This document shows, in pieces, positions 53,806 to 56,785 of a stretch of 64,000 nucleotides of DNA; positions within the stretch are counted from its first letter, which is position 1, and every line of letters begins with the position of its first letter. The notes below the pieces were generated by a model that worked only from the letters and a program-made list of their open reading frames with translations, searched no databases and was not told the DNA's origin. The position numbers and the translations under genes were made by a program. The DNA is from Hydrogenobacter thermophilus TK-6 (GTDB lineage: Bacteria; Aquificota; Aquificia; Aquificales; Aquificaceae): NCBI RefSeq assembly GCF_000010785.1, contig NC_013799.1:1240001-1304000 (forward strand), written 5' to 3'.

Positions 53806-55038
53806 ATGACAAAGGTGAAGGGTCTTGTTTGCAGAGAGTGCGGAAAGGAGTATCCCGTTGAGCCCATACATGTATGTGAGTTCTGCTTTGGACCCCTTGA
53901 GGTAGTTTACGACTATCAGGAGATAAAGAAGAAGCTTAGTAAAGAGAAGATAGAAAATGGACCCAAGAGCCTTTGGAGGTATATAGACCTTTTGCCCGTT
54001 GAGTATCCAAGCGTTGGTTTAAACGCTGGCTTTACACCACTCAAAAAAGCCGAGAATCTGGGAAGGCTTCTGGGACTTGAAAACCTCTACATCAAAGACG
54101 ACTCTGTAAACCATCCCACTTTATCCTTCAAAGATAGAGTGGTTTCTGTTGCGCTATCTAAAGCAAAGGAGTTTGGCTTTGATACGGTGGCGTGCGCTTC
54201 TACCGGGAACCTTGCCAATTCTGTGGCTGCGCATGCGGCGCAGGCTGGCTTTAACTGTTTTGTCTTTATTCCTGCAAACCTTGAATCGCAGAAGATCTTT
54301 GGAAGTCTTGTCTTTAAACCTACAGTGGTGGCTGTGGAAGGCAACTACGATGATGTAAACAGGCTGTGTTCGGAGATAGCCAACGAGCTAAACTGGGCTT
54401 TTGTCAACATAAACATAAGACCCTTCTATGCTGAAGGTTCAAAAACCCTTGCCTTTGAAGTGGTAGAGCAGTTAGGATGGAGAGCGCCAGATGCGGTTGT
54501 GGCTCCTGCAGCATCTGGGTCTTTGATAACCAAAATATGGAAAGGTCTCAAGGAACTCTATATGGTAGGTCTTTTGGATAGCTTAAAGACGAGAGTGTAT
54601 GGAGCGCAGGCTGAAGGTTGCTCTCCAATAGCTCAGGCTTGGAAGGAAGGCAGGGACTTTGTAAAACCCGTAAAACCCAATACAATAGCCAAATCAATAG
54701 CTATTGGTAATCCCGCGGATGGCATCTACGCACTTCAGGTGACAAAAGAGAGCTCTGGCATATGGGAAACAGCAACGGATGAGGAGATCATAGAAGGTAT
54801 AAAGCTTCTGGCAGAGACAGAAGGCATATTCACAGAGACCGCCGGTGGAACTACCATTGCAGTCCTCAAAAAACTCGCAGAGAAAGGTTACTTCTCACCA
54901 AAAGAGATAGTGGTGGCATACATCACAGGTAACGGCTACAAGACCATGGAGGTGCTTGAGGGACACCTTCCAGAAAGCATTAGAATAAAGCCCACTCTTG
55001 CAGACTTTAAGGAGAAGATACTTGTGAAGACATTATGA
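53806..55038 (+). CDS. thrC: Threonine synthase (second of two, with Cys-rich N-terminus)
   Basis: 410 residues. N-terminal zinc-ribbon-like motif VCRECGKEYP and HVCEFCFGPLE, then the fold-type II PLP domain: GFTPLKKAENLG, PLP lysine in DDSVNHPTLSFKDR, ACASTGNLANSVAAHAAQAG read in pieces, APAASGSLITKIWKGL. The longer N-terminus distinguishes it from the 352-residue copy at 11024. It may be a true threonine synthase or a related PLP lyase. Coupled to the TlpA-like gene by ATGA. Confidence 0.9.
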   Translation: MTKVKGLVCRECGKEYPVEPIHVCEFCFGPLEVVYDYQEIKKKLSKEKIENGPKSLWRYIDLLPVEYPSVGLNAGFTPLKKAENLGRLLGLENLYIKDDSVNHPTLSFKDRVVSVALSKAKEFGFDTVACASTGNLANSVAAHAAQAGFNCFVFIPANLESQKIFGSLVFKPTVVAVEGNYDDVNRLCSEIANELNWAFVNINIRPFYAEGSKTLAFEVVEQLGWRAPDAVVAPAASGSLITKIWKGLKELYMVGLLDSLKTRVYGAQAEGCSPIAQAWKEGRDFVKPVKPNTIAKSIAIGNPADGIYALQVTKESSGIWETATDEEIIEGIKLLAETEGIFTETAGGTTIAVLKKLAEKGYFSPKEIVVAYITGNGYKTMEVLEGHLPESIRIKPTLADFKEKILVKTL

Positions 55039-55460
55039 AAAGACTGATCCTTCTTTTCCTTATATTGCTTTCCTGCTCTGCAAAAGACACTCTTCCCGAC
55101 ATAACGGTAAAAGACATTGACGGTAAAAGTGTGAACCTTGGCAGTTATAAAAACCAGAAGTTGGTGCTTTACATCTGGAGCAGAACCTGCGCAGGACACA
55201 CGAAAGACTTAAAAAAGCTCGGACATCTGGTAAAGATGTATCCTAACTATAAGATAGTGTCTTACGCTGTAGCTATGGAGGCAGGTGATGTGGTGGAAAG
55301 CTACCGGCAGCTTGGTATAGCTCCCAACTTTCTCACCCTTATAGATACAGCGGTAAAGTTCAACGATTACTTCCCCATAACCTTTCTTCCTTCCACTTAT
55401 GTTTTTGACAAGGGCGGAAAGCTAATAGCCTCCTACGCAGGACTTCCCGACAAACTTTAA
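55035..55460 (+). CDS. TlpA-like thioredoxin-fold lipoprotein with single cysteine
   Basis: 141 residues. Signal with lipobox LILLFLILLSC, so lipidated at Cys14. Thioredoxin-like/redoxin core: PDITVKDIDGKSVNLGSYKNQ, then the active-site region WSRTCAGHTKDL and later PITFLPSTYVFDKGGK with the cis-Pro loop. The active site is Cys-Ala-Gly-His instead of CxxC, so it lacks the resolving Cys; it could be a monothiol enzyme or metal-binding protein. Located in the periplasm. Confidence 0.83.
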   Translation: MKRLILLFLILLSCSAKDTLPDITVKDIDGKSVNLGSYKNQKLVLYIWSRTCAGHTKDLKKLGHLVKMYPNYKIVSYAVAMEAGDVVESYRQLGIAPNFLTLIDTAVKFNDYFPITFLPSTYVFDKGGKLIASYAGLPDKL

Positions 55461-55466
55461 CCTATT

Positions 55467-55515
55467 CTTAATACAAACTTAATAAAAACTTAACTTTACC
55501 TTCTTATCCTCTTAG
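55467..55515 (+). repeat. Five direct repeats with exact 11-bp period (Pho-box-like)
   Basis: CTTAAT at 55467, CTTAAT at 55478, CTTAAC at 55489, CTTCTT at 55500 and CTTAG at 55511 are spaced exactly 11 bp, separated by A/T-rich 5-base spacers. Tandem half-sites at one helical turn are the binding layout for OmpR/PhoB-type response regulators, and CTTAA(C/T) with 11-bp spacing matches the Pho-box form I know from cyanobacteria. The site starts 6 bases after the TlpA-like gene stop, so it should act on the transcript that follows. Confidence 0.55.
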
Positions 55516-55592
55516 TTATGCAGGCAGCTACTTTCTGAGGTACAAAAAAGGAAAAGAACTCAGGGAGTGGGATTTTTTAAACAGGCTCCTTT

Positions 55593-55616
55593 ACCCCTTG
55601 ACAGGGGTTTTATTTT
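55593..55616 (+). terminator. Hairpin with T-rich tail, first terminator candidate
   Basis: ACCCC, loop TTGACA, GGGGT, then TTTATTTT. A five-pair stem. The loop is also the -35 of the next promoter, so the same DNA may be both a terminator for the first transcript and part of a promoter. Confidence 0.5.
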
Positions 55617-55626
55617 ATGTTATTTT
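55598..55626 (+). promoter_or_regulatory. Consensus-type promoter TTGACA-17-TATTTT
   Basis: TTGACA (55598-55603), 17 bases, TATTTT (55621-55626). This is one of the few perfect -35 boxes in the window at the right distance. It would start a transcript near 55633 that reaches the strong terminator at 55710, an RNA of about 75-80 bases. The -35 is flanked by the ACCCC/GGGGT inverted repeat. Confidence 0.55.
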
Positions 55627-55632
55627 TATTAT

Positions 55633-55710
55633 AAAATTAACTCACTTTAGAAGTGTCCTTCGTGTGGCACCTTGTGCGCCATCGGACCCCTCTGGGGTCT
55701 TTTTTTTTTT
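55633..55710 (+). ncRNA. Putative small RNA, about 78 bases
   Basis: Bounded by the TTGACA-17-TATTTT promoter and a strong intrinsic terminator, with no coding frame. Inside, GCAC-CTT-GTGC forms a small hairpin (about 55668-55678). I do not match it to a known RNA family (checked by eye for SRP, tmRNA and RNase P signatures; 6S cannot be judged). Confidence 0.4.
55685..55710 (+). terminator. Strong intrinsic terminator (plus strand)
   Basis: GACCCC, loop TCT, GGGGTC, then eleven T's (55700-55710). The T tract provides two bases of the reversed purK stop codon. On the minus strand no T run follows the stem, so it terminates plus-strand RNA only. There is no plus-strand protein gene after the TlpA-like gene, which supports a small RNA here. 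Confidence 0.85.
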
Positions 55711-56785
55711 ATATTCTCTGGTGCAGAAGTTCAAGGATGCTTTTTATCTTTTCTGCCACTTGCTCTTGCGTTTCTCCCACCACATTTATATGACCCATCT
55801 TTCTTCTTTCTCTCTTCTCCTTGCCATACCAGTATAGTTTAGCTCCCTCCATGGAGAGGATGCCTTCCATGTCCATGTCTTCAAGAGATATACCCAGCAG
55901 ATTTACCATACCGGAAGGTAGCTTTAGCTTTGTGGAACCCAATGGGAGGTCCGCTATGGCTCTGAGAAGATTCTCAAACTGGGATGTGTAGCATCCATCC
56001 AGCGTGTAATGACCAGTATTGTGAGGTCTTGGAGCCATCTCGTTTATCAGTACTTTACCATCCTTGCAGAAAAAGAACTCAACAGCTAAAAGACCTACAA
56101 GGTTTAGGTCAGACATGAGAGATGTAATTATGTCTTCTGCCTCTTTTATCTGTATGTTTTTGGTGTAGTTGTATAAAAGTATGCCACCATCGTGGTAGTT
56201 TACCGTGATAGGATAAACTCTTACTTGGCCTCTTTTGTTTCTTACGCCTATCAGTGAGAATTCAAAGAGGAAGTCTACAAACTCTTCTATGAGAAAGTTC
56301 TCTTGGGGAGAATGGTTTTTTAGCACCTCCTCTATCTGTGAAGTATGCTCTATTTTGTATTGCCCCTTTCCGTCATAACCAAGTTTCTCAGATTTTACTA
56401 TAGCTGGAAGCCTAAACTCTTTTAGCTCATGAAGTAAATCTTTAGCCTTTGCAAAGCTAAAATGGGCTGTAGGATACCCCATTTTTCTGTAAAAACTCTT
56501 CTCCTCTATGCGACTCCTTTTGAGCTTAAGTATATGGTGTGAGGGGACTAAAAGATGAGATACTGCCTCTATGAGGGACTCTTCTATGTGTTCAAATTCG
56601 CATGTGACCACATGGCAGTTTTTTGCAAAAACCTCCACCTGCTCTGGTGTAAAGACAGCATCTGCCACTCTGCAGGCAGGTGCTTTTGGATCACTATCAA
56701 GGACAAAAAACTCAAAGCCTAACTTTCTTCCCTCCAATACGGTCATCCATCCTAACTGACCACCTCCCAGTATGCCTATCCTCAT
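55709..56785 (-). CDS. purK: N5-carboxyaminoimidazole ribonucleotide synthetase
   Basis: 358 residues, ATP-grasp enzyme of purine synthesis that carboxylates AIR. N-terminal GILGGGQLGWMTVLEGRKLG in two parts (GILGGGQLGWM), VTCEFEHIE, VKSEKLGYDGKGQ and NEMAPRPHNTGHYTLDGC, all typical. Start overlaps the stop of the flavoprotein gene by one base (TGATG). Its stop lies in the T tract of the plus-strand terminator. purB and purF are nearby but not contiguous; purE is not seen. Confidence 0.95.
   Translation of the reverse strand: MRIGILGGGQLGWMTVLEGRKLGFEFFVLDSDPKAPACRVADAVFTPEQVEVFAKNCHVVTCEFEHIEESLIEAVSHLLVPSHHILKLKRSRIEEKSFYRKMGYPTAHFSFAKAKDLLHELKEFRLPAIVKSEKLGYDGKGQYKIEHTSQIEEVLKNHSPQENFLIEEFVDFLFEFSLIGVRNKRGQVRVYPITVNYHDGGILLYNYTKNIQIKEAEDIITSLMSDLNLVGLLAVEFFFCKDGKVLINEMAPRPHNTGHYTLDGCYTSQFENLLRAIADLPLGSTKLKLPSGMVNLLGISLEDMDMEGILSMEGAKLYWYGKEKRERRKMGHINVVGETQEQVAEKIKSILELLHQRI

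Follow-up and report, generated by a model that had tools for sequence, protein, structure and literature searches.

What occupies the 248 bp between the tlpA-like gene and the convergent purK gene of Hydrogenobacter thermophilus TK-6 (complete genome, a single contig of 1,743,135 bases) is the question raised by this locus. An earlier note on the window, namely the whole stretch of 64,000 nucleotides that was analysed and whose numbering is used below unless stated otherwise, had read the gap as one or two small RNAs (sRNAs), the first of them possibly driven by a regulator array with an 11-bp period. The analysis indicates that the observation was mostly right, and that the interpretation is partly supported and half right; it splits into a Pho promoter, an insertion sequence (IS) scar, and an sRNA gene. 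The gap is probably a composite, in which the scar left by the loss of a gene cluster adjoins one probable gene.

The gap between the tlpA-like gene and purK

The gap extends from the stop codon of the tlpA-like gene (55460) to purK (55709) and, as had been described, contains no credible open reading frame. The left neighbour (55035–55460, + strand) is a tlpA-like (AhpC-TSA/redoxin) lipoprotein gene with a Pfam AhpC-TSA match of 6e-9, and the right neighbour, purK (55709–56785, − strand), matches Pfam ATP-grasp and PurK_C. The gap is not as exceptional as had been claimed. All other convergent pairs of the window were said to overlap or nearly abut, but by a rough gene call three further convergent pairs are separated by 602, 209, and 98 bp, with a tRNA occupying the 98-bp gap.

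The other elements that had been reported were found again. A TTGACA-17-TATTTT promoter is present at 55598–55626 with 10/12 matches and an extended TG, two sites with a hairpin and a T run lie at 55593–55608 and 55684–55700, and the TTGACA is indeed in the loop of the first hairpin. The promoter count alone was not significant (2 found vs. 2.5 expected), and terminator-like sites were enriched (5 found vs. 1.6 expected).

The array is a predicted phosphate-linked promoter

Of the five CTTAA-type half-sites that had been listed at an 11-bp period, those at 55467, 55478, and 55489 stood, whereas the fourth and fifth, CTTCT (55500) and CTTAG (55511), are not repeats and flank a −10 element, TATCCT. 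The true fourth repeat, unlisted before, is TTTAAC at 55456, which runs across the tlpA-like stop codon. The Pho-box-type array comprises four 11-bp units, TTTAACCTATT, CTTAATACAAA, CTTAATAAAAA, and CTTAACTTTAC (55456–55499, + strand). When overlapping matches within one array were counted separately, a three-repeat YTTAAY pattern with an 11-bp period gave 4 matches in the H. thermophilus genome vs. 0 in the reversed control, and 36 vs. 1 in 64 genomes of the family. Because these counts are far above those of the reversed control, the repeats are not due to chance.

The TATCCT element (55505–55510, + strand) has the TAN3T form and lies 5 bp after the last unit. It is followed 7 nt later by an ATG (55519–55521, + strand), whose reading frame closes after six codons and which would mark the start codon of a lost DUF2334 gene. 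The order in the window is CTTAACTTTAC CTTCT TATCCT CTTAGTT ATG, with every promoter element retained, including the start-codon position.

A family-wide DNA search recovered the array segment in five related genomes (G025, G028, G039, G042, and G043), in each of which a DUF2334 (polysaccharide-deacetylase-like) gene follows, with its ATG immediately 3′ of the array. Among 25 DUF2334 genes examined, 22 starts were readable and three were not resolved by the script. All 22 readable starts showed the same arrangement, namely the last repeat (11 bp), 5 bp, TAN3T, 7–11 nt, and ATG, with a variable number of good repeats (one or two clean units in G027 and a few others). Conservation in relatives, which the earlier note had proposed as a check, was confirmed, with the arrays placed before DUF2334 gene starts.

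Elsewhere in the H. thermophilus genome, a strict match to the array precedes a PhoX-family phosphatase gene (genome position 197032), and a match before phoU (463360) requires two mismatches, as do two other matches. In relatives, arrays were found before PhoX and Porin_O_P genes across genera and before a TonB-dependent receptor gene. Near-match CTTAAC-type arrays with an 11-bp period lie at G000:C1:397610 and 400869 (L085 4611 and 7870); the one at 400869 (minus strand) sits just before an ABC substrate-binding-protein gene with no obvious phosphate role.

In the cyanobacterial SphR box, the 8-mer CTTAACCT occurs three times or more with linkers of 3 bp, and the Escherichia coli PhoB box has a TAN3T −10 downstream (PMC1906773). 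Like these boxes, the array has tandem repeats at an 11-bp period with phosphate genes downstream. Its CTTAAC core is the core of the Synechocystis box CTTAACCT with a 3-bp linker, and, as in E. coli, its TAN3T −10 lies a short distance downstream (PMC1906773). Unlike the SphR and PhoB systems, it belongs to an Aquificota host, it has a near-leaderless ATG 7–11 nt after the −10, and the target operon of the H. thermophilus copy is gone. A Pho box is expected to show at least two direct repeats at an 11-bp period, a TAN3T −10 just downstream, and further copies upstream of recognised phosphate genes in the genome; here we found the four units at 55456–55499, TATCCT, and phoX (strict) and phoU (two mismatches), respectively. 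A limited literature search returned nothing direct on a Pho box in Aquificaceae or Aquificales. Because arrays precede phoX and phoU and resemble the published Pho boxes, the guess of a PhoB/OmpR-type phosphate regulator is well supported, and the array is a predicted PhoB-type phosphate-linked site. The part of that guess which made it the regulator of an sRNA was not supported.

The operon behind the array has been lost

The gene order in G028 is threonine-synthase-like, tlpA-like, array, DUF2334, PHP-GT4, GT4, sRNA element, and purK, and the DUF2334, PHP-GT4, and GT4 genes occupy ~4 kb at this site (L033 6333–10345). G025 carries the same three genes as an operon after its array (L034 6921–10933), and the tlpA-like gene lies 5′ of the array in both genomes. 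The four other Hydrogenobacter genomes each carry a DUF2334 gene. No DUF2334 gene was found in the H. thermophilus genome, in which the two glycosyltransferases of the operon have distant paralogs only. Judged by sequence, the array is the orphaned phosphate-starvation promoter of a protein operon lost in this lineage, because the DUF2334, PHP-GT4, and GT4 genes are all missing from this genome.

With a Pho-type promoter in front of it, the operon of DUF2334, PHP-GT4, and GT4 genes is itself a candidate phosphate-starvation glycolipid pathway of Aquificaceae. By analogy, its product may be a phosphorus-free glycolipid. PlcP-Agt glycolipid synthesis of Pseudomonas aeruginosa is phosphate-controlled, and the operon resembles it in placing glycosyltransferases under Pho-box control (PMC8528852). 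The hexSDF glycolipid operon of Clostridioides difficile includes a deacetylase, and both operons combine a deacetylase with a glycosyltransferase-type synthase (PMC10128005). No test here placed DUF2334 or PHP-GT4 in the families of PlcP-Agt or hexSDF.

An insertion-sequence remnant lies at the junction

The segment 55517–55588 is identified as the remnant of an ISAae1-like IS. Its right terminal repeat, GGGATTTTTTAAACAGGCTC (55569–55588, + strand), agrees with the ISAae1-like terminal inverted repeat and recurs at IS ends in H. thermophilus and in intact ISAae1. No left end was found at this locus, and with it the pair of ends flanked by a target-site duplication is missing; the loss of this end makes a deletion associated with the IS likely. 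The segment 55517–55566 (+ strand) is probably a fragment of the transposase gene and resembles the middle of that gene, although the match is weak: its peptide shows 61% identity over 18 aa to a three-copy transposase, and its DNA score was equalled by 5 of 1000 shuffles. The open frame 55517–55708 was also tried as a protein remnant and rejected, as it had no Pfam match and its only multi-copy match was the transposase.

A related transposase is annotated as ISAae1 in Aquifex aeolicus VF5, where intact copies have 8-bp target-site duplications. The element shares with ISAae1 (IS5-like) the terminal repeat sequence and has transposase relatives in the H. thermophilus genome. Unlike ISAae1, it is only a remnant at this locus and lacks its left end together with the greater part of the transposase gene. 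Short IS copies at L091 ~1795 and L095 ~1555, in which an N-terminal transposase fragment is fused directly to the right end, resemble internally deleted (MITE-like) derivatives. A match to the IS-end sequence in L092 was discarded as chance, since it lies inside a sugar-isomerase-like coding region.

The DNA beyond the right ends follows a pattern. Eight right ends in H. thermophilus were located via the transposase alone and were thus unbiased by their flanks. An exact TTGACA lies 8–9 bp beyond seven of them; beyond the remaining one the hexamer is TTGACT, at 7 bp. In all eight, the −35-like hexamer is followed, after 16–18 bp, by a −10 with 4–6 matches to TATAAT. Given a TTGACA frequency of 0.00033 per position in the window, the right-end pattern has P ~4e-22, a value that assumes independence. 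Intact A. aeolicus ISAae1 copies show the duplication and then TTGACA, TTGACT, or TTTACA, and because the hexamer comes after the 8-bp duplication in these copies, it is outside the IS. The picture was mixed in other genomes, where 6 of the 19 listed ends, which were chosen by DNA similarity, had a match of at least 5/6 at 8–10 bp; left ends and chance matches will be among the ends so chosen. The sRNA promoter in the window lies 9 bp beyond the IS right end, and G028 has the same promoter without the IS. Right ends standing 8–9 bp upstream of a sigma70-type TTGACA can be seen at window 55569–55603 and at L172–L179, L166, L167, and L168.

It is rather likely that the ISAae1-like element is promoter-targeting and inserts, always in the same orientation, directly upstream of the −35 hexamer TTGACA of sigma70 promoters, where it duplicates 8 bp (sometimes perhaps 9 bp) of the target. 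Such targeting would perhaps occur via recognition of −35 DNA or of promoter-bound RNA polymerase. On this reading, the promoter of the candidate sRNA in the window would be one of the targets. Nothing direct on a promoter-targeting IS of this kind was found in a limited literature search.

A probable sRNA gene lies beside purK

The second unit of the gap, 55598–55708, has its own promoter, an intrinsic terminator, and no open reading frame. The sigma70-type promoter (55598–55626, + strand) is kept in G028 as TTGACA-17-TACTTT, with both hexamers and the spacing retained. The candidate sRNA (55634–55708, + strand; predicted start site) would be 70–75 nt long with three stems. It would end at an intrinsic terminator (55684–55708, + strand) with a 7-bp stem and a T run, and the stem is kept in G028. 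The identity between 55598–55708 and its G028 counterpart was 89% over aligned positions, whereas purK reached 74% and the tlpA-like gene 77%. Within a core of 50 nt, picked after the alignment was seen, 46/50 positions were identical (P ~1e-3 at the purK rate). Compared with shuffles, the fold had z values of −2.2 and −2.1 in the two genomes.

A covariance model run against 136 Aquificota genomes recovered the two founding genomes only, H. thermophilus and G028, which is another Hydrogenobacter; other matches, with E values of 0.09–0.5, were treated as chance. The sRNA is conserved in these two genomes without covariation in the stems. The proposed Infernal/Rfam check returned no family, at either gathering or permissive thresholds. 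At the purK 3′ ends of G025–G027 the sRNA is absent, and other sequence is found there, in which a frame resembling hisIE was recognised by eye. For Aquificales, Lechner et al. in 2014 reported novel ncRNA candidates from A. aeolicus (PMC4227106); the candidate described here is likewise a short intergenic RNA from the same bacterial family, but the model search did not find it in A. aeolicus. A limited literature search gave nothing direct on sRNAs of H. thermophilus. In our assessment, 55598–55708 is probably a real sRNA gene, and the sRNA may perhaps act by base-pairing via its C/U-rich loops.

Alternative readings of the locus

The reading with the strongest claim against the sRNA gene is that 55598–55708 is conserved as a regulatory or terminator region at the 3′ end of purK, or by chance. 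Only two genomes carry the element, and in G028 the purK frame continues ~65 nt antisense into it (L033 10408–10480). Yet the conserved promoter, with both hexamers and their spacing, points towards the terminator, the T run follows the hairpin on the + strand only, and the core identity of the element exceeds that of purK. We consider this alternative somewhat unlikely and prefer the sRNA gene. In the window, unlike in G028, purK stops just outside the sRNA element.

Considerably less probable is the original proposal of two functional sRNAs, of which the first would be array-driven and phosphate-responsive and would end at the hairpin ACCCC-TTGACA-GGGGT with its T-rich tail (55593–55608, + strand). 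An intact Pho promoter does face the gap with this hairpin downstream, so a transcript of ~90 nt is physically possible. The body of this first RNA, however, is the IS remnant; it had no relative in the family-wide DNA search and, at 97 nt, folds little better than shuffles (z −1.0), and what the array drives in relatives is an operon of protein-coding genes. The hairpin itself is absent from G028, the only relative keeping the promoter. Because G028 lacks it, the DNA shared by terminator and promoter, although present as described, is not a conserved device; the hairpin may still be able to stop transcripts from the orphan Pho promoter. Of the one or two sRNAs proposed, the second, conserved in G028, is retained and the first is not. 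Very improbable is the remaining alternative, in which the array serves a different OmpR-type regulator with no phosphate role. Several OmpR-type regulators are present, none of them a clear PhoB equivalog (the best scored 209 bits against a strict PhoB cut-off of 296, which no Hydrogenobacter genome passes), and one near-match array precedes the ABC substrate-binding-protein gene mentioned above. The two best candidate regulators are at genome positions 1309856 and 1325217. Against it stand the strict matches before phoX and Porin_O_P genes across genera, the looser one before phoU, and the agreement of repeat sequence, spacing, and −10 form with Pho boxes. We therefore keep to the phosphate-linked promoter.

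Discussion

Taken as a whole, the gap probably contains an orphan Pho promoter, the scar of an IS, and a single lineage-restricted gene that is likely to encode an sRNA. From the gene order in the relatives and the anatomy of the gap, we infer the following order of events. The ancestor would have had a phosphate-starvation operon (DUF2334, PHP-domain GT4, and GT4) between the tlpA-like gene and the purK-adjacent sRNA gene. An ISAae1-like IS would then have inserted just upstream of the sRNA promoter in this lineage, and deletion would subsequently have removed the operon together with most of the IS. What remains is the Pho promoter, complete with four repeats, −10, and start codon, followed by the right end of the IS and by the sRNA gene. 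A PhoB/SphR-type regulator would still bind the array when phosphate is low, and transcription would start near 55516–55519. The transcript from the orphan promoter would be short and probably functionless, and it may terminate at the hairpin around TTGACA. Transcription of the sRNA would start separately, from TTGACA-17-TATTTT, and end at the T run beside purK.

The locus supplies a short, testable sRNA gene. If the IS targets promoters, transposition upstream of sigma70 promoters becomes directly testable. For Aquificaceae, the comparison defines a phosphate-regulon motif together with its predicted promoter architecture (box, 5 bp, TAN3T, and near-leaderless ATG). The array would be a clean case of a regulatory site that has outlived its operon in a very compact genome, and one that would be mistaken for a live target in a motif scan.
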